A DNA stretch of 64,000 bases from positions 496,001 through 560,000 of the forward strand of contig NZ_JANZNR010000001.1 of NCBI RefSeq assembly GCF_025153525.1. The letters are read 5' to 3'. Both the position numbers and the translations under genes were made by a program. This stretch comes from Psychroserpens sp. SPM9. GTDB taxonomy: Bacteria; Bacteroidota; Bacteroidia; Flavobacteriales; Flavobacteriaceae. A model generated the notes under the pieces. The model had not been told where the DNA came from. It ran no database searches and saw only the letters and a program-made list of their open reading frames with translations. Of the stretch, positions 3,494-34,562 are shown one piece after another; positions within the stretch are counted from its first letter, which is position 1, and every line of letters begins with the position of its first letter.

Positions 3494-4870
3494 TTACTCC
3501 TTGACAATCTTATAAGTTCCTGTTTTTTCCGAAGATTTTATATTTAAAAAATAAATGCCTTCCGGAAAGTCTTTCACATTTAAAGTTGTTAAGCCTTCTG
3601 AAGTAGTTGTATTTAAAAGTAACTTTCCTGAAACATCATACAAATTAATCGCTAATGCTTGATTTCCAAAAGCCGTTTCAATAGAAAGTTTAGCCTTTAC
3701 CGGATTGGGGTAAACCTGTAATTCATCTTCAGAAAAAGCGTCCAAACCAAGCGTATCAAAAACAATACAAGCACTGCGTTCTATACAGGTTCCTGAAGTA
3801 ATTTCAACCGCATAAACACCATTTACTGAAGGTGAAAAAGATTGATTAGTTGCTCCAGAAATAGGACTATTCGTATTACAATCATACCACTGGTATGATG
3901 CCGACGATTGGTTAGACGTGAGTAATGATGGGGTTTGCGTTACTGTATTGTCAACAGCAATCAAACTTGCTTTGGTCGCCATATAAGCAGTAACAAGTTT
4001 TATCATTTCACGGTAATAAGGCAAATCAAGAGTTGCTACACGATCTCCAGACGAATGGTAAAATGGGGTTTCGTCATCAGTTTCCCAAGACTCTCCAACC
4101 AATAATGCTGTAAAACCTTGTGCCCAAAAACGCGCATGGTCACTTGCCGTTGTACCTGGATTGACTTCTATCACACTCAAATCAAAAGTATAAGTATTTA
4201 AAACCGAAATAATATCGTCTTTCATTGCTACAGATCCTGCAATATCTCTGTAATCGATATCAAACTCATTATCGCCAGGCTCACCTGGAGCATCACCATC
4301 ATACCCCACCATATCCATGTTTAAAACGGCTAGAATATTGTCACCATTACTCGCCGCTTGGTTTGCATAAAATTGAGAGCCTAGTAATCCTATTTCTTCC
4401 TCATCCCAAAGCGCATAAACAATAGTATTATCGACGCATTGCTGCGATAAAATTCTGGCAATTTCTAATACGGCAACAGTTCCAGTAGCATTGTCATCTG
4501 CACAATAATCTGCCACAGTATCATAGTGCGCACATACAATATAAATGTTATCTGGGTTTGTTTTTCCTAACTGAGTGGCAATAATATTTCTTCCGTTAGA
4601 ATTAAAAGTTTGCTCTAAAACGGTAATATTATCGAGAGCTTCAAATTGTTCAACCAAATAATCACCTGCCAATTCATTATTGGCTTGCTGCCTGTTTAAA
4701 ATTGTAACCGTATTTCCATCTACAACGGTCGATTGTTCTCCAGAAAATTCGTTAAGAGTAAGTTCTAATCTATTAATATCAACTTGATTAATGAGGTCTT
4801 GAACGGTTTGTCCACCGCAAAACATTGAACAAAATAAGGTGCAGATTAAAATGGGATGAATAGCTTTCAT
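3494..4870 (-). CDS. Secreted M28 aminopeptidase with T9SS sorting domain
   Basis: A 458-residue exported zinc aminopeptidase of family M28. Residues 1-20 form a signal peptide. The dinuclear zinc site is visible: AHYDT (H115, D117), the CADDNATG segment (D125/D126), DEEEIGLLGS (E157/E158), NMDMVGYD (D186) and a late ASDHARFW histidine. After residue 300 comes an immunoglobulin-like stretch, and from LQVYPNPV near residue 385 a type A T9SS sorting domain. The enzyme should trim N-terminal amino acids from peptides at the cell surface or outside it, feeding the M20 dipeptidase next door. It is monocistronic. Confidence 0.93.
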   Translation of the reverse strand: MKAIHPILICTLFCSMFCGGQTVQDLINQVDINRLELTLNEFSGEQSTVVDGNTVTILNRQQANNELAGDYLVEQFEALDNITVLEQTFNSNGRNIIATQLGKTNPDNIYIVCAHYDTVADYCADDNATGTVAVLEIARILSQQCVDNTIVYALWDEEEIGLLGSQFYANQAASNGDNILAVLNMDMVGYDGDAPGEPGDNEFDIDYRDIAGSVAMKDDIISVLNTYTFDLSVIEVNPGTTASDHARFWAQGFTALLVGESWETDDETPFYHSSGDRVATLDLPYYREMIKLVTAYMATKASLIAVDNTVTQTPSLLTSNQSSASYQWYDCNTNSPISGATNQSFSPSVNGVYAVEITSGTCIERSACIVFDTLGLDAFSEDELQVYPNPVKAKLSIETAFGNQALAINLYDVSGKLLLNTTTSEGLTTLNVKDFPEGIYFLNIKSSEKTGTYKIVKE

Positions 4871-4898
4871 TGTGGGCGTTTTATCTGATAATTTTTAT

Positions 4899-4906
4899 CA
4901 AATATA
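4899..4906 (-). promoter_or_regulatory. Probable -7 element of the M28 gene
   Basis: TATATTTG on the minus strand matches TAnnTTTG, 29 nt before the start codon at 4870. A well-spaced -33 TTG is not seen. Confidence 0.45.
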
Positions 4907-4938
4907 GTTGATTTTAAACAAATTCATTTTTATAGAAT

Positions 4939-4972
4939 TTGGAAATTCAATTTTTTATTCTACATTTGTAGA
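4939..4972 (+). promoter_or_regulatory. Promoter with overlapping BlaI-type operator
   Basis: TTG (4939-4941), 19 nt, TACATTTG (4961-4968) forms a consensus Bacteroidota promoter. The -7 box lies inside the perfect palindrome TCTACATTTGTAGA (4959-4972), which contains the TACA-N2-TGTA dyad known for BlaI/MecI operators. Repressor bound here would block the promoter of its own gene, 23 nt downstream. Confidence 0.8.
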
Positions 4973-4995
4973 GTTAATTCTAAAAACGTAGAACA

Positions 4996-5361
4996 ATGCA
5001 ATTATCCAAAACCGAAGAGCAATTAATGCAATACCTCTGGAAACTTGAGAAGGGTTTTATGAAAGATTTATTAGAAGCTTATCCAGAACCAAAACCTGCA
5101 ACCACAACTGTTGCTACCCTTTTAAAACGTATGATTGACAAAGGCTTTGTAGCTTATAAGCTCTACGGAAAATCCCGTGAATACTACCCTTTGGTTAAAA
5201 AGAAAGATTATTTTTCTAAACATGTAAATACGCTTATTAAAACATTTTTTAATGACAGTGCTTCTCAGTTTGCATCATTTTTTACGAAGGAAACTAATTT
5301 GTCTAAAGCCGAATTAGAAGACTTAAAAGCATTAATCGATAACGAAATTAAAAACAAGTAG
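4996..5361 (+). CDS. BlaI/MecI/CopY family repressor
   Basis: A 121-residue winged-helix repressor of the BlaI/MecI family. The N-terminal 75 residues hold the winged helix (KTEEQLMQYLWKLEKG, then KPATTTVATLLKRMIDKGF as recognition region and wing); the C-terminal 40 residues are the dimerisation helices. It lies 2 bp before the M56 receptor gene and behind a palindromic operator, so autoregulation with relief by cleavage through the M56 partner is the expected mode, as in BlaR1/BlaI. No beta-lactamase gene is near, so the regulated process is unknown. Confidence 0.93.
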   Translation: MQLSKTEEQLMQYLWKLEKGFMKDLLEAYPEPKPATTTVATLLKRMIDKGFVAYKLYGKSREYYPLVKKKDYFSKHVNTLIKTFFNDSASQFASFFTKETNLSKAELEDLKALIDNEIKNK

Positions 5362-5363
5362 TC

Positions 5364-8213
5364 ATGCTTATCTACCTCTTAAAATTTAGCGCTTGTTTGG
5401 CTCTTTTTATGGTCTTTTATAAGTTGCTTTTAGAAAAATCCAGCATTCATAATTTCAAGCGTTTTTATTTACTAGGTGCATTAACAACTGCCTTAATTAT
5501 ACCATCGCTTACTTTTATAGAATACATTGAGCCGCTCGTATATGATTCTTTTGAAATGATAGAACCACTGCCAACAATGGTTATTACAGATGCCGTTTCT
5601 AAAGAGGTTTCAATAGATTATGCATCTATTATATTATGGAGTATTTACGGTTTAGGCGTTTTTATTTTTCTTCTGAAATTTTCCCTAAATCTCTATAAAA
5701 TCATTAAGCGAATTAAGAACAATCCAAAATTGAAATCGGCTGCTTTCATCAACGTTTTAGTAACAAACCTTGTAACACCGCACACCTTTTTTAGTTATAT
5801 ATTTTTAAATAAACATAAATTTGAACACGCCGAAATTCCGCAGGAAGTATTACTCCACGAACAAACGCATGCGAAGCAAAAACACAGTTTAGACGTTTTA
5901 ATTTTAGAGTTGACACACATCTTGTTTTGGTTCAATCCACTTATATACCTTCTAAAAAAAGAAGTTAAGCTCAATCATGAATTTTTAGCAGATCGTGCCG
6001 TATTACGCAACGGCATTCAGCCATCAGCATATCAACAATTATTATTAGCATTCTCATCAAATGCCAGCGAACCTCAATTGGCAAATGCCATCAATTATTC
6101 ATCCATCAAAAAACGATTTACAGTTATGAAAACAAACACATCAAAACCATCTATTTGGCTTAGAAGCCTATTAGTCTTTCCGTTACTAGCCCTTATGCTA
6201 TACAGTTTTACTGAGCGTAAACAAATAGTAAAAGCAGCAGAAGTACCTGTTCAAAATTATATATCTGAAGGTGTTTCTGAAGCTCAAATGAAAGAATACA
6301 ACGAATTTATCATTGCATTTAACACCACACATACTATAAACCATGACGCTTATGAAAGAATTGTGTCGATCTACAATTTAATGACTGAAAAACAAAAAGC
6401 TTCTGTAGAACCTTATCCTAAAATTCCGGGAATCGATTTATCAAAAACCAAAGCAAAAACACCTACTAAAGAACAATTTGAGTCTTGGAAAAATGAGAAA
6501 GAATTTGCTATTTGGCTGGATGGTGTTCATATTCCCAACGTAAAATTGAATTCATATGCCTTGGATGATATTGCACATTATGTTGGTAGTTTTGCTCATA
6601 AAAATGCTCGTAGTGAAAGGTTTCCGCAGCCTTATCAATTTAGTCTATACACTAAAAAAGGATTTGAAACGACCTATCAACAGTCTCAGGTCAAAACCTA
6701 CAGATCCTTATCACAAAAATATTCTGATGCGATTCAAATTTATTTAAAAGAACGTCAGACCGATAATTCAGAATTAAAGCTTCTGTATGAACGCGCTTCA
6801 AGGCTTTATAAATCTTTCACTAAAGAAGAACTAAAAAAATACAAACTTTTGCCACCACCTCCGCCACCAGCAGCAGGAAAATCAACCAATAATAGTTCAA
6901 ATGCCAAAGAATGGGATAAGGTTAAACAGCACTTAAACCCTTCAGCATCTTCTAAAAATCAGACACAACCAATGTGGATTTTGCTTAATAACAAAGGCCA
7001 GTTTTTAGTCGATGATGAGTTAGGTTCTTTAGAAACAATTGAAGCCGAGTTTAAAAGTATCGCTAATGATAAGCGTCGGTCTAAAAAAGTAAATTTCAAA
7101 CATGATCCCAAGGCACCAAAAGCTATGGTTACCAATCTTGTAGCATTGATTAAAAAGTATAAGCTAGAAAATATTTCTGGTGATAATTTACTTGTTCCTC
7201 CTCCTCCACCAAGACCCGAAAAAGTTAAAACGGGTAATGGTCCCAATGCTGAAAATTACAACGATTATCCCATTCCACCTGCAATTCCGGAGAACGCAAC
7301 ACCTGAACAACGTGAAAAAATGCAGCGTGCTATTGATGAATTTGAACACAAATACAAGCGAAAAGTACATCAGATAAAATCAGAAAATGGTATGACTTAT
7401 AATATGATTGTAAATGATGAAGAGTATGATCCAAATAATTCTGAAGCTTATAAAACTAAAACAGGGTTTATTAAAATAAACGGACAAGCACATTATTTTG
7501 TAACTATTGATAACAAAACGAAGTATTACAATAGGAACGGCTTTGAAGTTTCAAAAGCTGGTGACGTTATAAGTCCGTCTCAAGTGAATGCCTCTGATGT
7601 CATTCCAAATCAATACATCACGAAAGTATTTAGTGACGGAAAAATTATGACAGAATTTAAAGACAATATCCCAAGTCGTGATAAAAAAATCATGGATATC
7701 CCTTCCCCTCCAAAACCTTTATCTGCATTAGATTTTATAATAGATATGGCAAAGAAAAATGCCAAATTCTACTATGAAAACAAAGCGATTTCTTCAGATG
7801 AAGCCATTTCGCTTTTAAAACAGCATCCAGAATTAAATGTACTAGCAAAGCCAACAACTAATGAACAACCTTTAGTGTACCTCTCTAAAGAACCAATACG
7901 TACACAACAGAAGTATCAAAAAAGTAAAGCACTTGTTAGTATCAATGGAAAAACACCTATCAACGACCAACTCAACTTAACTATTGACGATTTTAAGAGT
8001 ATAAAACTCACATTAGAAACAGCTGAAGTGATAAGCTTTAAGTTCAAAGTGCCTGGTAAACCAACGGAACACAACAAAGGCTATACCTTAAATGATAAGT
8101 CTAAATCCTATCTAAAAGCACTCTCGTCTGAAACAGTTGTTCAGTTTTTTGATATTAAAGATTCTAAAGGTTTTGTGCATCCTCCTGTAGTGGTTTCCAT
8201 TAAAACTAATTAA
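5364..8213 (+). CDS. M56 (BlaR1-like) membrane metallopeptidase with large proline-rich C-terminal region
   Basis: A 949-residue receptor-type protease paired with BlaI. Transmembrane segments are seen near residues 2-24, 36-52, 88-110, 182-198 and 267-283. The zinc motif HEQTH (165-169) and the downstream NHEFLADRAVL (205-213) are the M56 active site on the cytoplasmic side. Beyond residue 285 the protein has a very long, probably periplasmic region with proline tracts (LLPPPPPPAA near 495, VPPPPPRPE near 615) and no recognisable penicillin-binding domain, unlike BlaR1. The ligand is therefore unknown. By family knowledge it should cleave or trigger loss of the adjacent repressor when it senses a signal. 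A hairpin follows the stop codon. Confidence 0.9.
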   Translation: MLIYLLKFSACLALFMVFYKLLLEKSSIHNFKRFYLLGALTTALIIPSLTFIEYIEPLVYDSFEMIEPLPTMVITDAVSKEVSIDYASIILWSIYGLGVFIFLLKFSLNLYKIIKRIKNNPKLKSAAFINVLVTNLVTPHTFFSYIFLNKHKFEHAEIPQEVLLHEQTHAKQKHSLDVLILELTHILFWFNPLIYLLKKEVKLNHEFLADRAVLRNGIQPSAYQQLLLAFSSNASEPQLANAINYSSIKKRFTVMKTNTSKPSIWLRSLLVFPLLALMLYSFTERKQIVKAAEVPVQNYISEGVSEAQMKEYNEFIIAFNTTHTINHDAYERIVSIYNLMTEKQKASVEPYPKIPGIDLSKTKAKTPTKEQFESWKNEKEFAIWLDGVHIPNVKLNSYALDDIAHYVGSFAHKNARSERFPQPYQFSLYTKKGFETTYQQSQVKTYRSLSQKYSDAIQIYLKERQTDNSELKLLYERASRLYKSFTKEELKKYKLLPPPPPPAAGKSTNNSSNAKEWDKVKQHLNPSASSKNQTQPMWILLNNKGQFLVDDELGSLETIEAEFKSIANDKRRSKKVNFKHDPKAPKAMVTNLVALIKKYKLENISGDNLLVPPPPPRPEKVKTGNGPNAENYNDYPIPPAIPENATPEQREKMQRAIDEFEHKYKRKVHQIKSENGMTYNMIVNDEEYDPNNSEAYKTKTGFIKINGQAHYFVTIDNKTKYYNRNGFEVSKAGDVISPSQVNASDVIPNQYITKVFSDGKIMTEFKDNIPSRDKKIMDIPSPPKPLSALDFIIDMAKKNAKFYYENKAISSDEAISLLKQHPELNVLAKPTTNEQPLVYLSKEPIRTQQKYQKSKALVSINGKTPINDQLNLTIDDFKSIKLTLETAEVISFKFKVPGKPTEHNKGYTLNDKSKSYLKALSSETVVQFFDIKDSKGFVHPPVVVSIKTN

Positions 8214-8220
8214 AAATAAA

Positions 8221-8258
8221 TATACCTAAAAGCCTCTTAAATGAGGCTTTCAGGTATA
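8221..8258 (+). terminator. Long hairpin after the M56 gene
   Basis: TATACCT-AAAGCCTC pairs with GAGGCTTT-AGGTATA around a six-base loop, with one unpaired base on each arm. It has no long T run, so it may be a terminator or an mRNA-stabilising end. Confidence 0.65.
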
Positions 8259-8347
8259 TATACGGGTTTTAAATTTCGAGTAAATCGGTTCTAAAATCAT
8301 CTCGTAAACATTGCTATTTTTAAATGATTAACTTTAAATAGCTTGTC

Positions 8348-9181
8348 ATGAGATTATCTTCAAATCCAAAATTATACATAGCGCTGTCTTTATTGTTTTT
8401 TGTTTGCTTAGCTATAGGCTTAGGTCTTAGCAAAAAAGCTGAAAACATTCCAAACAACTTTACTGTACAAGAGAAACCAAAAAACACACCAATGCTGCCT
8501 TTAATAACCGACAGTGTTCCTCATTTAAAAAAACTCTTTAAAGCTGCAATGTTAGATGCTCAAAATCCAGAGCCAAGTGAAATATATAACCACCTTATCA
8601 ATCTGGAAACGGATAAAAATTTGCTAGACACTATAATTAATAGGGAACGTTACATTAAAATGGTGTCTTGGAAATTAAATCCGAAATGGTATCCCAAAAA
8701 AGGAAAATTCAATAATGAAAATCGCGTTATTTGGGTTACAGCCGCACCTATTATTCAAGATAGTTGCAAAAGTTTCCATAAAAAGTATAAAGATCCTAAC
8801 ATGCGTTTGCGTCAATTGTTAGGCTTACAGCCTTTTACTGTTGAAACGTTTTTCCTAGAAGTTTGGGTAAAACCATCAGACCTATTTAGACCTGCGCCTG
8901 ATAATGAAACTAATGATAGTAGTTGCGGACTCAATTTACCAAACGATGTTAGTAGCAGCTATCGAAAATGGTTTAATGACACGCGAGCTAACCAATACAA
9001 AGATTGTACAGATTCTATCTTTGATGAGTATGGATACCCATGGACTCAGTTAGGATACACCTATGATTGGAGTCCCGACAATCCAACAAACGTGGGTTTA
9101 TCAGAATTTGTGATCAAAGAAAATTCAAATATGTACGTTAGTGGAGGATATCCAAATAAAGTGTATTGTACTTCAAAATAA
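8348..9181 (+). CDS. Exported or membrane-anchored protein of unknown function
   Basis: I do not recognise a family for this 277-residue protein. A single hydrophobic segment at residues 8-26 after two basic residues fits a signal anchor or signal peptide without a lipobox. The rest is soluble, with six cysteines after residue 130 (in DSCKSFH, DSSCGLN, KDCTDS and the C-terminal YCTSK among others), which suggests disulphides in the periplasm, and many aromatic residues in the last third. It stands alone between a hairpin and a terminator, downstream of the BlaI/M56 pair on the same strand. Confidence 0.75.
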   Translation: MRLSSNPKLYIALSLLFFVCLAIGLGLSKKAENIPNNFTVQEKPKNTPMLPLITDSVPHLKKLFKAAMLDAQNPEPSEIYNHLINLETDKNLLDTIINRERYIKMVSWKLNPKWYPKKGKFNNENRVIWVTAAPIIQDSCKSFHKKYKDPNMRLRQLLGLQPFTVETFFLEVWVKPSDLFRPAPDNETNDSSCGLNLPNDVSSSYRKWFNDTRANQYKDCTDSIFDEYGYPWTQLGYTYDWSPDNPTNVGLSEFVIKENSNMYVSGGYPNKVYCTSK

Positions 9182-9208
9182 AGGCTAAAAAAACCAAACA
9201 TAAATCAC

Positions 9209-9243
9209 AGACCTTTCATAAATAAGACATGAAAGGTCTTTTT
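9209..9243 (+). terminator. Rho-independent terminator
   Basis: AGACCTTTCAT (9209-9219) pairs with ATGAAAGGTCT (9229-9239), followed by a T run. It ends the gene at 8348-9181. Confidence 0.88.
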
Positions 9244-9311
9244 CTGTTAAAATATGTAACAATACAAGGCTTTTTGCGTTCTAATAGACAATCAATCAAA
9301 AATCAATCATC

Positions 9312-10412
9312 ATGTTAAAACAATTCTTCATCATCTGTTCTGGAGCAGATACAGATATTCTCGATAATTGCGCTATAGGAGAACAAAATAAATATGCTGG
9401 CATTGGAGCTACTGTATTTTTTACTGCTGTTATGGCATTTATTGCATGTAGCTACGCCCTTTACACTGTTTTTGACAATCTATTTTCTGCGCTTACTTTT
9501 GGATTTATTTGGGGGTTGTTGATCTTCAATCTGGACCGTTTTATCGTGTCTACCATAAAAAAACGTAACAATAGTATCGACGAAATCATTCAGGCATCAC
9601 CAAGAATCATCTTAGCGATTATTATTGCTGTTGTTATTTCTAAACCTCTAGAACTTAAAATCTTTGAAAAGGAAATCAATCAAGTGCTGCTTGAACAAAA
9701 AAATGAACTCACTTTAGCCAACCAAAATCAAATTGCTGAACAGTTTACACCAAATGTTGAAGCATTAGAAGCAAACATTGCAACCTTACAATCGCAAATC
9801 ATCACAAAAGAAGCTGAAGTAAATGCGCTTTATGATGTTTATATTTCTGAAGCTGAAGGTACTGCCGGAACACAGTTACTGGGAAAAGGACCTGTATATA
9901 AAGAAAAACGAGAAAAACATGATGCTGCACTTGCCGAATTACAACAACTAAAAACAGATAATAAAGCAAAAATAGAGGCGACCGAAGCTCAAATTGCACA
10001 ACTAAAAAATGATTATGACGCTCAAGTAAGCTCTACACAACCTATAATTGATGGCTTTGATGGATTGATGGCGCGCGTTAATGCTTTAGGGGAATTACCT
10101 TGGCTCCCATCCTTATTCATTTTACTCTTGTTTTTAGCGGTAGAAACATCTCCTATTTTCGCAAAATTACTTTCGCCAAAAGGTGAATATGACTACAAAT
10201 TAGAAGATGCCGAAACAGCTGTTAAAACCTGGGTTGAACAAAAAGTAAGTGAGCGCAAATTAGTACTTCAAACCGATCAAACACTCAATAACAGAATTTA
10301 TAATGATATTGCCGAAGAAGACGAACTCTATACTTACAAACGTAAAAAAGCTCGTGAACTCATGCAACTACAGGCGGATGCATTCTTTAAGCATCAAAAA
10401 AACGCATTGTAA
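9312..10412 (+). CDS. DUF4407 membrane protein
   Basis: A 366-residue inner-membrane protein of the DUF4407 family. The order is: short N-terminal region with the family-like CSGADTDILDNC, three membrane segments (about 32-54, 58-76, 93-110), a long charged coiled-coil region (about 120-235, rich in E, Q, A and K), a fourth membrane segment (about 265-285) and a charged cytoplasmic tail. No enzymatic motif is visible. The family is common in Bacteroidota and its function is not established. It is followed after 33 bp by an NTF2-like lipoprotein gene. Confidence 0.88.
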   Translation: MLKQFFIICSGADTDILDNCAIGEQNKYAGIGATVFFTAVMAFIACSYALYTVFDNLFSALTFGFIWGLLIFNLDRFIVSTIKKRNNSIDEIIQASPRIILAIIIAVVISKPLELKIFEKEINQVLLEQKNELTLANQNQIAEQFTPNVEALEANIATLQSQIITKEAEVNALYDVYISEAEGTAGTQLLGKGPVYKEKREKHDAALAELQQLKTDNKAKIEATEAQIAQLKNDYDAQVSSTQPIIDGFDGLMARVNALGELPWLPSLFILLLFLAVETSPIFAKLLSPKGEYDYKLEDAETAVKTWVEQKVSERKLVLQTDQTLNNRIYNDIAEEDELYTYKRKKARELMQLQADAFFKHQKNAL

Positions 10413-30852: not shown

Positions 30853-33153
30853 TTAGTTTGCAATTTGAAATACAATTGGTAATCTATAAGACACCTCAAC
30901 CGGCTGGCCATCATGTTGTCCTGGATGATCAAACTTAGGCAAGCTTTTGACAACTCTAATAGCTTCTTCTTCTAATTTTGGGTGTGATGCTCTTGCTTTC
31001 ACATTAACAATATCGCCTTGTGTATTGATGTTGAAAACAACTTCAACACGTTGGCGTCCTTTGAGTCCGATTTTTGAAGCCTCATTCAAGTTGAAATTTT
31101 TGTTCACATAGCTATTAATCGTTTTACTAACGCATGCTTTACGATCGTCTCTATTGGATAAAGCCTGGCATGATTGGTAAACAGGAATTTCATCTACACT
31201 ACTAAAAGGCATTCCGCTTAACTTTTGTTGGTTTTGCATCGCATCAAGCTGCTTTAATTTTTGAGTCATTACTTTGACTTCTTTTGCCACAAGAGCAGAA
31301 TCGGTTTCTATTTTATTTTCAGCAGCTACCTGAAATAAAATCGGCAAACTATAAGGTACAATCACTGGCTTTCCTTTTTGCTTTCCAGGAACAAATTGAG
31401 GCAGTTCATAAATCACACGTTTAGCTTCTTCTTCTAATTTAGGATGTGGCGCTCTAGCTTTGACACCAGTTACGTGTCCTTCCTTATCAATTTTAAACAT
31501 AACATTAATACGTTGTCTTCCAACAAGACCTAATTGGCTCGCTAAATTGGTATTAAATTTTTTATTTACATGTCTTGCAATACCTTCACTCATGCATTTT
31601 TTTCGTTCGGCTTCCGAAGTCAAGGCGTCACAAAATGAAAATGTAGGCGCTTCTTCTATTATAGAAAAAGGAACCTCTATAGATTCTTCAATCTGAGTGA
31701 CTTTCACTTCATCTACAGCATCAATAACGGTTTCTGCAACATTTGAATGAGCAGATTGATAATCGCTAACCATCATTTTAGTTCGTCCATCTTCAGTAAC
31801 TACAAGTAAGCCTTTATAAAATTCATCTTTTTCAATCAAGTCTAATTTTTGATCAAACTTTTTCTTTTCTTCATCTGTCATTTTTCCAGCACTGATAACC
31901 AATCGTAATATGCCATCTTGAATATCACTTTCCCATAATTGTTTAGCTTCATCCGTTTTTTTACTTTCTAAATAATCGTTATAAGGTTTAAATTTTGAAA
32001 AGCGCTCAAGGAACTTACTGTCTTTTTCCAATTCTTTTGCGCCTTTTTGTGCAAAGAATTTAAAGAAAGCCATTTGTTTGTAATACTGATCTCTACTTAA
32101 TACATACTTTTCACGATTAGGCTTATAGGCTTCATAAATGTCACTAAAATCTACATTTTTTTCATGCAAAGCGACGATGTCGTTGTAGTATTTATCGAAT
32201 AATTCTTTATCTGTTAGCTCTTGTAAATCGGTAACTGTGATTGTTTCTGTAATCGATTCTACTTTCTCCTGTGCATACGACGAGGTATAAATTAACATCG
32301 CAAATACCAATGGTAATAATAACGCATATTTAATGCTATGGATTTGTTTTGATTTTGATTTGCTTAACATAAGAATTCGTTTTTTGATTAATGATTGTTT
32401 AAAAAATGGATTGACAAAAGAAAACTGTTCGGTCTCAAAAACCTGAGCTAATAAATTGTCATAATAATCGGCTTTATTGTGATTTTTCACAGCTTTAGCA
32501 TCTGCGATATATTCGTGTAAGGTTGCTATTCTATTTTGATAGAGGTAGACTAATGGATTGAACCAGAATGCAATTCGGAAGAGTTCAAAAAACAATAAAT
32601 CTAAGGTGTGTTTTTGTTTAACGTGAACGATTTCGTGCTCCAGAATCGTTGATTTTTCTTGGAGATTTAATTGTCCGCCCAAAAAAATGTAATGGAAAAA
32701 CGAAAACGCTTTTGTACTATTTATCAAGTTAATAATTAAGATATTTCCTTTCCAGCGCTTAGGATGTTTTGATGCTAACCAAAACAGCTTTGTAATTTTT
32801 ATAAGCAATAGTAGTGTGGCGACGCACATGCCTGAAATTAAAATAATGCGCCATATTGAAACAGGTTCTGGATCTAAATTGATACCGACTTGCATGGCGA
32901 TTTGCGGATCTATAGTACTTATGTTTTCAGCAGGATTGCCTATAATTACTTCGGGTAAACGGATTGCAAAATCTTTAGCCACAACCTCTTTTATTTGCTC
33001 TATTTTTATAAATGGAATCACCACGGAAAGTACTGCAGTTCCCAACAAGTAAACCCTGTTTAAATTAAAAAAAGTTTCCTTCCGAAGCGCTATATCATAA
33101 ATGATTAAAAACAAGGCCTGAAATGTAACGACTTGTAAAATATAATGTAACAT
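30853..33153 (-). CDS. M56 metallopeptidase receptor with two C-terminal TonB-like domains
   Basis: A 766-residue BlaR1-like protein. Membrane segments are near 2-21, 32-50, 98-122 and 185-203, with a fifth near 275-292. The zinc motif is HEIVH (173-177) with LHEYIADAKA (about 212-221). The long periplasmic region carries two homologous TonB C-terminal-like units, about 512-617 and 656-766, each beginning with a Cys-x10-12-Cys stretch and containing GRQR(I/V)xVxFxI and a KARA.HPKLEEEA stretch of about 14 residues. There is no penicillin-binding domain. By family logic it should inactivate the adjacent BlaI-type repressor upon signal; the TonB-like units may contact outer membrane receptors or cell wall. 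Start is 2 bp after the repressor stop. Confidence 0.9.
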   Translation of the reverse strand: MLHYILQVVTFQALFLIIYDIALRKETFFNLNRVYLLGTAVLSVVIPFIKIEQIKEVVAKDFAIRLPEVIIGNPAENISTIDPQIAMQVGINLDPEPVSIWRIILISGMCVATLLLLIKITKLFWLASKHPKRWKGNILIINLINSTKAFSFFHYIFLGGQLNLQEKSTILEHEIVHVKQKHTLDLLFFELFRIAFWFNPLVYLYQNRIATLHEYIADAKAVKNHNKADYYDNLLAQVFETEQFSFVNPFFKQSLIKKRILMLSKSKSKQIHSIKYALLLPLVFAMLIYTSSYAQEKVESITETITVTDLQELTDKELFDKYYNDIVALHEKNVDFSDIYEAYKPNREKYVLSRDQYYKQMAFFKFFAQKGAKELEKDSKFLERFSKFKPYNDYLESKKTDEAKQLWESDIQDGILRLVISAGKMTDEEKKKFDQKLDLIEKDEFYKGLLVVTEDGRTKMMVSDYQSAHSNVAETVIDAVDEVKVTQIEESIEVPFSIIEEAPTFSFCDALTSEAERKKCMSEGIARHVNKKFNTNLASQLGLVGRQRINVMFKIDKEGHVTGVKARAPHPKLEEEAKRVIYELPQFVPGKQKGKPVIVPYSLPILFQVAAENKIETDSALVAKEVKVMTQKLKQLDAMQNQQKLSGMPFSSVDEIPVYQSCQALSNRDDRKACVSKTINSYVNKNFNLNEASKIGLKGRQRVEVVFNINTQGDIVNVKARASHPKLEEEAIRVVKSLPKFDHPGQHDGQPVEVSYRLPIVFQIAN

Positions 33154-33155
33154 AA

Positions 33156-33518
33156 CTAGTGCTTTGGCGTATTAATATCTTTTAAAATAGCTTCCATATC
33201 TTTTAAATCGATGTCATTTTTTTTAACAAAAAAGGAGACCATACTCTTAAACGATCCTTGAAAGTAATTGTCTACCAAATTATTGATAGACTGATTGCTG
33301 TAATCTTGTTTTTTAACTATAGGGAAATAAATATGGCCTTTCCCCTGTTTTTCATAATCTACAAATCCTTTATTTTCTAAAATTCTCACAATGGTAGATA
33401 CGGTGTTATACGCTGGTTTTGGCTGTGGAAGCTGCGCAATAATATCTTTAACATTAGCTCTATCTAATTGCCAGAGGATATGCATGATTTCTTCTTCGGC
33501 TTTTGTAAGTTGTTTCAT
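33156..33518 (-). CDS. BlaI/MecI/CopY family repressor (second)
   Basis: A 120-residue winged-helix repressor, paralogous to the one at 4996-5361: KAEEEIMHILWQLDRANVKDI, KPAYNTVSTIVRILENKGFVDYEK and the dimerisation tail after about residue 75. It lies 12 bp behind the DUF4350-like gene and 2 bp before the M56-TonB gene, so its product and its protease are made together. Likely targets are the palindromes over the operon promoter at 34487-34518. Confidence 0.93.
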   Translation of the reverse strand: MKQLTKAEEEIMHILWQLDRANVKDIIAQLPQPKPAYNTVSTIVRILENKGFVDYEKQGKGHIYFPIVKKQDYSNQSINNLVDNYFQGSFKSMVSFFVKKNDIDLKDMEAILKDINTPKH

Positions 33519-33530
33519 TTGATATGATTA

Positions 33531-34457
33531 TTATTTTGTGTCTTTGGCGCTTAACCAAAGCATGATGTTTCTTAAAAAATCTATATTATGAGGTGCGTGT
33601 TCAGAATTAAATCCGAATCGGAATGTCCCATTATTATTGGTAACCACCTGAGCCGTAAACTGAGCTGCTTCACCAAAAACGGCTAATTTTCCTTTTCCAA
33701 AATTCATAATAGCGCCTTGATAACTGCCTTCTAAATCTTTGACCTTAGTCTCCTCATCAAATTGCCAGGCGATTTCAGGTTGTAAACATTCATCCCCTTT
33801 GAGGAATTTTAAAACACCTGTGGCTTCGGGCGGAATTTGAAATGACGAACCTGTAAATGTGGTGACACTCTTTAGAGCTGTTCCAAAAGTACCATCGGTA
33901 AGCGGTGAGCTAAGGAGTCGCTTATTTTCTTCGGAAAACACATCTGGCTGACGTCTGGGTTGTGACAGTTGAGCAAATCCGTCGCAAAACTCAAATCCGA
34001 AACTCTGAGCCAACGCATTGGCTGCTCCAGAAAACGGCATATGATCTGCAATGATGAGCAATCGACCTCCATTATTAACCCACTTTTTTATGGCCTTTAT
34101 ATCTTCAACACTAAACGCACTAAGGATGGGTTGCCTCCAGTTTCCAACATTTTTAGAATGTATCGCATTTGAAATTACCAGAATATCTGTCGCGCCCAAA
34201 TCCTCAAAATTGAGCATGGATTTCACCTGATATCCATCCTGAGTTAAAAGTTCACTAAAAGGTTTAAAACGGCCATCTTTAGTATGAAAATTATGATGTG
34301 TTTCATCTATAAACACCCTGGGACCTTTGTCTAATTTGTGATAGGGATTGCTTAGTTTAGCCACTAAAGATGCATCGGCCATTTGTTGCGCTATTACAAA
34401 ACTCGAACAGCACATGACGAAGCTCATTATGATGGATTTGATACCTCTTAAAAACAT
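33531..34457 (-). CDS. Exported DUF4350-like protein
   Basis: A 308-residue protein with a signal peptide (about 1-23). The motifs VFIDETHHNFHTKDGRF, GATDILVISNAIH, IKKWVNNGGRLLIIADHMPF and FGEAAQFTAQ resemble DUF4350/GATase1-like domains, which often act as binding modules without activity. It is the first gene of the operon DUF4350-BlaI-M56/TonB-TPR-lipoprotein. Its role there is unknown; as an exported protein it might be the effector or a sensor partner. Confidence 0.8.
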   Translation of the reverse strand: MFLRGIKSIIMSFVMCCSSFVIAQQMADASLVAKLSNPYHKLDKGPRVFIDETHHNFHTKDGRFKPFSELLTQDGYQVKSMLNFEDLGATDILVISNAIHSKNVGNWRQPILSAFSVEDIKAIKKWVNNGGRLLIIADHMPFSGAANALAQSFGFEFCDGFAQLSQPRRQPDVFSEENKRLLSSPLTDGTFGTALKSVTTFTGSSFQIPPEATGVLKFLKGDECLQPEIAWQFDEETKVKDLEGSYQGAIMNFGKGKLAVFGEAAQFTAQVVTNNNGTFRFGFNSEHAPHNIDFLRNIMLWLSAKDTK

Positions 34458-34478
34458 AATATATGATTATTGATACTT

Positions 34479-34562
34479 CAAATATAACTAAAAACTTAGT
34501 TCAAACTAAATATTTAGTTTAAAAATGTAACAAAATTCACTTTTTAGCGTCTACTTAGTAGA
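34479..34562. promoter_or_regulatory. Palindrome cluster over the M56-TonB operon promoter
   Basis: On the minus strand TATATTTG (34486-34479) is a -7 box for the operon starting at 34457. Directly upstream lie ACTAAAAACTTAGT (34487-34500) and the perfect palindrome AAACTAAATATTTAGTTT (34503-34520), centres 18 bp apart, sharing ACTA-N6-TAGT. A third dyad, TCTACTTAGTAGA (34550-34562), lies 16 nt before the divergent DUF456 gene. They fit repressor sites of the second BlaI protein and could also affect DUF456. Confidence 0.65.

Follow-up and report, generated by a model that had tools for sequence, protein, structure and literature searches.

The 14-bp site at positions 4959-4972 of a 64,000-nucleotide stretch of Psychroserpens sp. 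SPM9 DNA (hereafter the window) stands in front of a BlaI/MecI-family repressor gene and is very probably that repressor's own off-switch. We consider it, with high confidence, to be one of two operator dyads through which the BlaI-like protein encoded at 4996-5361 controls its own transcription unit, with repression relieved by an M56 peptidase; binding, repression, cleavage and induction are predicted steps, and the sites, their spacing, their co-occurrence with the repressor gene and the match between recognition helix and operator emerge from comparison of genomes. Judged by the same comparison, the paired sites are woven into the promoter, and sister repressors have recognisably different site codes. 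The genome from which the window comes totals 3.8 Mb in 41 contigs; the relevant features of the window are listed below.

4938-4941, + strand: TTTG with a -33-type TTG at 4939-4941 (sequence; a separate TTG stands 18-20 nt from the box in 54 of the 57 orthologues without the upstream dyad O1)
4959-4972, + strand: O2, the dyad TCTACATTTGTAGA over the -7 box (sequence and orthologue conservation)
4961-4968, + strand: -7 box TAcaTTTG within O2 (130 of 133 O2 sites in orthologues match TAnnTTTG exactly)
4979-4992, + strand: O3, the dyad TCTAAAAACGTAGA in the predicted leader (O2-O3 spacing of 20 bp in 105/105 orthologues with both called)
4996-5361, + strand: gene for a BlaI/MecI-family repressor of 121 aa (PF03965, E 1.9e-26; MecI chains, E about 1e-7)
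5364-8213, + strand: gene for a predicted M56 (BlaR1-type) membrane metalloprotease of 949 aa, HEQTH at residues 165-169 (PF05569, E 8.9e-14; AlphaFold2 model and structure comparison)
6954-7202, + strand: ExbD/TolR-like domain, residues 531-613 of the M56 protein (Z 9.4, rmsd 2.6 over 74 residues; Pfam ExbD E 5.6e-4, below cut-off)
7914-8210, + strand: domain like the C-terminal domain of GldM/PorM, residues 851-949 (6ey4, Z 13.7, rmsd 1.7 over 92 residues; Pfam GldM_4th E 0.0071, below cut-off)
8220-8259, no strand assigned: 17-pair hairpin after the M56 stop codon, stem AGGTATAT/ATATACCT (terminator-like on the minus strand only)

The first-pass annotation had described a single, perfect 14-bp dyad with the TACA/TGTA half-sites of BlaI/MecI operators, overlapping a TTG-N19-TAnnTTTG promoter, and gave its sequence and coordinates exactly. 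The 6-bp arms of O2, TCTACA and TGTAGA, are indeed perfect, but the central TT is not self-complementary, leaving symmetry at 12 of 14 positions. The promoter overlap was borne out: O2, which lies 24 bp 5' of the repressor gene, contains TAcaTTTG 19 nt after the TTG, and TACATTTG is an exact -7 box. For Flavobacterium psychrophilum, a study that mapped transcription start sites (PMC9723704) gives TAnnTTTG as the -7 consensus of sigma-A promoters. Transcription in the window is predicted to start a few bases after 4968. The site is real but is one of two, as a second dyad, O3, had been missed exactly 20 bp 3' of O2; the window thus has O2 and O3 without O1. The TACA-N2-TGTA core is exact in O2 and proved to be a special case of TCTA-N6-TAGA, the form seen in O3, which describes the sites better since position 5 is A, not C, in 104 of 105 O3 sites.

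Taken singly, the 14-mer is not enriched in the window, with nine matches at up to three mismatches against 10.7 expected from shuffles. Genome-wide, the motif occurs exactly once, and the seven further copies that differ by one letter all fall within ORFs; the 30 TCTACANNTGTAGA loci fetched from the family comprised 19 beside a BlaI gene and 11 elsewhere. We therefore rejected the lone 14-mer as a motif for finding the regulon, the use suggested for it previously: its near matches in its own genome are all in coding DNA, the outcome that had been named in advance as counting against it. What lifts O2 above chance is the second dyad, O3, together with conservation in orthologues. When the genome was searched for TCTA-N6-TAGA occurring twice within 3-17 bp, the pair pattern was found in one place only, even with nothing more than TCTA-N6-TAGA required of each dyad, and this looser search gave no further targets beyond this operon. 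The two-dyad pattern can serve as the regulon motif, and in its own genome it names this operon only.

For the comparison with relatives, we collected 236 BlaI-bearing loci and retained 199 after dropping 37 that were duplicates or had too little upstream DNA; 123 of the 199, whose BlaI proteins share at least 64% identity (range 64-100%) with that of the window, form the orthologue set. Counting dyads with at least 9 of 12 arm bases within 130 bp of the start codon, at least two are present in all 123 distinct orthologue upstreams. The layout in these relatives comprises O1 over the -33 TTG, O2 over the -7 box and O3 in the leader. Among the 122 upstreams in which the middle site was called (it was not called in L220), 55 have O2 and O3, 50 have all three and 17 have O1 and O2, shares that are conditional because O2 calls depended on the presence of a partner dyad. 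The spacing between O1 and O2 is 28 bp in 61 of 67 cases and 27 bp in the other six. In a slightly larger set of 135 loci, the 20,250 upstream bases contain 317 copies of TCTA-N6-TAGA versus 22 copies in 753,692 bases elsewhere in these loci, and two or more such sites are found in 133 of the 135 real upstreams versus none of 2,700 dinucleotide shuffles.

The variable positions differ between the three sites and fall where the promoter boxes leave room for change. O2 keeps TA and TTTG (the latter in 120/122) and varies at the nn of TAnnTTTG, with 97 C/25 T at one position and 93 A/29 G at the other. O1 retains its TTG in 67/67 and varies at positions 5-7, and in O3, free of any promoter box, the variation spans positions 5-9 with TCTA and TAGA nearly invariant. 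The TTG of O1 stands 20 nt from the -7 box in 67 of 76 instances and 19 nt in the remaining nine. Because O1 contains the -33 TTG, operator and promoter appear to be written in the same letters, and the 28-bp step from O1 to O2 is what promoter geometry would impose. An Escherichia coli-type promoter scan of 4860-9400 was uninformative here (17 matches versus 20.1 in shuffles).

The repressor belongs to the Penicillinase_R family (PF03965; 93.1 bits versus a cut-off of 22.6, residues 3-115) and shares the family traits of more than one dyad per target in its own operon and an adjoining M56 peptidase gene. Its closest named relatives are found in an Algicola sp. MAG (96% identity) and in Psychroserpens-type Flavobacteriaceae (93-95%), and it scores below the NCBIfam equivalog cut-offs for BlaI_of_BCL (33.7 vs 180) and MecI_of_mecA (33.6 vs 250). 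Paralogous BlaI/M56 pairs are a recurrent feature of these genomes, and the window's own genome encodes four BlaI proteins. We tallied recognition helices (residues 35-46, ATTTVATLLKRM in the window's repressor) against operators within 150 bp at 223 distinct BlaI loci (266 matches, 43 duplicates dropped). Genes with an A-type helix (residue 36 not Tyr, Thr37, Ala40) have TCTA-N6-TAGA in 143 of 144 cases, 139 of them with at least two sites. All 12 genes with a B-type helix (AYTTIS..KRM; residues 35-46 AYTTISTLLKRM) have ACTA-N6-TAGT, and AACTA-N6-TAGTT accompanies 47 of the 58 C/D-type genes (YNTxS), the 11 genes without a site within 150 bp including some inside operons. Within this last group, AYNT (C) genes have AACTAA-N4-TTAGTT in 22/30 with dyads mostly 18 bp apart (21 pairs), and HYNT (D) genes have AACTAT-N4-ATAGTT in 20/28 with dyads 20 bp apart (22 pairs), a mixed form also being present in 21/28. 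TCTA-N6-TAGA lies within 1,500 bp of 10 of the 28 D genes and within 150 bp of none.

Because operator type tracks the recognition helix across paralogues, O2 and O3 are very likely bound by the repressor encoded next to them, with the reservation that the helix-operator matches are not independent events since the compared genes are related. Two loci from another family of the order (L038, L039) combine an A helix with an A operator at 55% identity; they are no closer to the window's repressor than is the B group (52-59%). Correlation among these related genes hints at position 36 as a specificity determinant. Position 40 alone does not determine specificity, because Ser40 genes without Tyr36 (L276, L278, L304, L305) retain TCTA sites. 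Together with their helices, the four half-site codes (TCTA, ACTA, AACTAA and AACTAT) provide a test set for specificity change in a small winged-helix repressor.

A second BlaI/M56 pair lies in the window on the minus strand (genes 33531-34457, 33156-33518 and 30853-33153). Its operator at 34486-34519 (-) consists of AACTAAATATTTAGTT and AACTAAGTTTTTAGTT, 18 bp apart and adjoining a TATATTTG box, and precedes the 308-aa gene that leads the operon; the repressor of this pair has an AYNT helix.

The presence of an exact -7 box within O2, of the form that is the F. psychrophilum sigma-A consensus in the available part of PMC9723704, raises the question of whether the conserved letters reflect a sigma-A promoter alone, with accidental symmetry. 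A promoter accounts for 6 of the 14 conserved letters, however, and O3 keeps TCTA and TAGA almost unchanged without any promoter box. Other dyads stand at like places before paralogous genes, and just one of the 11 TTG-N17-21-TAnnTTTG sites in the window is a dyad: the O2 site is symmetric at 6/6 arm positions and the rest at 0-4. We therefore regard this explanation as extremely unlikely. An equally slim chance attaches to O3 being no protein-bound operator but an element of the mRNA leader, either a small hairpin or a signal for translation initiation. O3 would be transcribed, and in most orthologues no more than 16-20 nt separate it from the start codon, but the stem it could form has 4 bp only, 17 of 122 orthologues have O1 without O3, and the unvarying 20-bp step from O2, together with the matching half-sites, points to DNA.

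The operator could also be real and yet bound chiefly by another regulator, for example a BlaI paralogue, of which the genome has three besides this one, given that the B-type sequence ACTACA-N2-TGTAGT matches O2 at 10 of 12 arm letters. In the tally of A, B, C and D genes, however, no cross-match of TCTA with ACTA or AACTA occurred within 150 bp, and the site and the A-type gene are found together from genome to genome, which makes a different principal binder very improbable. The reading that we favour remains an operator over the -7 box, with the neighbouring BlaI-like protein as its predicted binder and autorepression as its predicted effect; this much of the first-pass annotation is supported by the 123/123 orthologue upstreams and by site type following the recognition helix.

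Across 149 genomes of the family, a close relative of the repressor (E up to 1e-36) was found in 78, the strict pair pattern in 77 and both in 76. The two BlaI-positive genomes without the strict pair (G085 and G118) have versions one base off, and in G098, the one pattern-positive member of the 71 genomes without a protein match, a BlaI gene partly masked by N lies beside the site. Of 397 family genomes, 192 have the two-dyad pattern and none has its reversed control. In an order sample of 196 genomes it was present in 16, all within the window's own family, and in a phylum sample in 38 of 296, made up of 16 from its own family, two from a second family of the same class and 20 from family f37, which belongs to another class of the same phylum and was pattern-positive in 20 of 35 sampled genomes. 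Among the 20 f37 genomes fetched, 19 have the 20-bp pair 36-40 bp 5' of a BlaI gene whose product shares 59-77% identity with the window's repressor; in the remaining genome (L324) the site before its own BlaI gene is degenerate, and an exact pair precedes a gene for a 367-aa lipoprotein-like protein. The two-dyad pattern led to the repressor gene in nearly every case checked, and its specificity suffices for regulons to be read from genomes.

Further targets were sought in 31 regions of the family set, chosen mostly as odd matches or as genomes with more than one match, and in five genomes among them the pair precedes genes other than blaI. Two such targets away from blaI encode PF00144 (beta-lactamase/DD-peptidase-type) proteins, in L263 (E 1.6e-63; double operator at 5349-5389) and L265 (E 1.6e-49; 5620-5653). 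In two different genera, the pair (L261, 5346-5387; L279, 4657-4698) stands before genes for homologous 301-aa lipoprotein-like proteins with a GEMHG motif, and in L275 before a 559-aa lipoprotein-like gene. Pfam gave no match for the 301-aa protein (that of L261 was tested), and both the 301-aa and the 559-aa proteins have sub-threshold NCBIfam matches only; judging by their motifs, the former may be esterase-like and the latter SGNH-like. L262 has a further pair before the gene that follows the M56 gene, and in genus g146 (L295, L297, L299, L301) the pair precedes a 140-149-aa lipoprotein-like gene heading the blaI-M56 operon. Neither extra targets nor such arrangements were seen in the window's own genome. 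A PF00144 gene lies directly 3' of blaI-M56 in L272. By appearance, a look-alike of this gene also follows blaI-M56 in L286.

We propose that dimers of the BlaI-like protein would bind O2, covering the -7 box, and O3, covering the start region, and that the two dimers, 20 bp or two helical turns apart, would lie on one face of the DNA. Their occupancy would shut off the blaI-M56 transcription unit, and a third dimer would cover the -33 TTG where O1 is present, as in about half of the orthologues. Triggering of the periplasmic tail of the M56 protein would then lead the protease to cut the repressor and free the promoter.

The adjacent PF03965 repressor and M56 metalloprotease genes, the TACA-N2-TGTA core and the HEXXH protease fold (8ext, 8exs; Z 11.8) are shared with the BlaI/MecI-BlaR1/MecR1 systems of Staphylococcus aureus. 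In the available part of the source, S. aureus BlaI is cut between Asn101 and Phe102 (PMC9834060); this bond aligns with Phe95-Phe96 of the window's repressor, in which the P1' Phe corresponds to Phe96 and P1 aligns as Phe, not Asn. S94, F95 and F96 are kept in 123/123 orthologues. Unlike in S. aureus, the half-site here is TCTA-N6-TAGA, the promoter is of the Bacteroidota type, the repressor gene comes first, and no class D/penicillin-binding sensor domain was detected by Pfam in the 44 M56 partners scanned (the window's and 43 from orthologues).

A precedent for the paired sites comes from Clostridium thermocellum, for which the accessible text of PMC8457756 describes two-dyad, four-protomer autoregulatory sites with half-sites GTCTAT and GACTAT. 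BlaI_0696 and BlaI_1845 are alike in having two dyads per target and a very small autoregulatory regulon, and the paralogues likewise divide into TCTA-kind and ACTA-kind half-sites (same part of PMC8457756). The GTCTAT inverted repeats are, as printed there, five nucleotides apart, unlike those of the window, and the portion of that description available to us does not include promoter fusion or a third site. CopY/CopR copper repressors, as far as the available part of PMC7253601 goes, have a TACANNTGTA core in a 16-base operator and often two operators in 21-base repeats, proposed to lie over the -35 and -10 boxes. Unlike them, the window's repressor has no cysteine and thus no CXC metal motif, and it scores below the NCBIfam CopY_TcrY cut-off (46.2 bits vs 121.95). 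The occupancy proposed for O2 and O3 resembles both the C. thermocellum four-protomer rule (PMC8457756) and the two-operator cop promoters (PMC7253601), as set out in the parts of these papers available. Our searches of the open PMC literature yielded neither a Bacteroidota BlaI operator or signal for BlaI/M56 pairs nor an M56-GldM fusion.

The M56 domain of the partner scores 51.8 bits against a cut-off of 31, and residues 1-247 superpose on BlaR1 (8ext, 8exs) with rmsd 4.4-4.9; the whole protein scores below the NCBIfam blaR1_generic cut-off (45.8 bits vs 400). An M56 ORF lies downstream in 134 of 135 orthologues, with HExxH in 133. Because the AlphaFold2 model (38 sequences, mean pLDDT 73.0) has a pTM of 0.40, the spatial order of domains was not used and only single-domain matches are quoted. 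The GldM-like domain is 21% identical to 6ey4 (Foldseek E 4.4e-7). Sequence support for both domains is weak in the window's protein and stronger in orthologues: among the 44 partners scanned ExbD was matched in eight (best 6.4e-12) and GldM_4th in three (best 4.4e-4). The tails are mosaic: complete proteins (n=71) range from 407 to 1,184 aa, and GldM-like and ExbD-like domains occur in 19/72 and 10/72 proteins (window included), in varying places and number. A small module at residues 784-846, for which Pfam gave no match, is present in 48 of the 72 proteins compared (window included).

As modelled, the tail suggests a signal other than beta-lactams. We offer as a tentative and rather doubtful idea that a BlaR1-type receptor with ExbD/TolR-like and GldM-like modules in place of an antibiotic sensor monitors the condition of proton-powered envelope machinery (gliding, type IX secretion or Ton energisation) and cleaves a BlaI whose operators, of two to three dyads, are fused to the promoter, with parallel circuits kept apart by half-site code. 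If the tail domains are as modelled, the circuit's readout would concern envelope machinery rather than an antibiotic. A single cell could house several such circuits at once, since the helix of each paralogue appears to read its own half-site code.

No clean terminator was obtained 3' of the M56 gene, the hairpin at 8220-8259 scoring as a terminator for the minus strand alone. A DUF4407 gene (E 1.4e-104) is located at 9312-10412, distant from the pair and after a 277-aa ORF, and a DUF4407-type protein is encoded directly behind the M56 gene in several relatives (e.g. L266, L267, L268 and L274).
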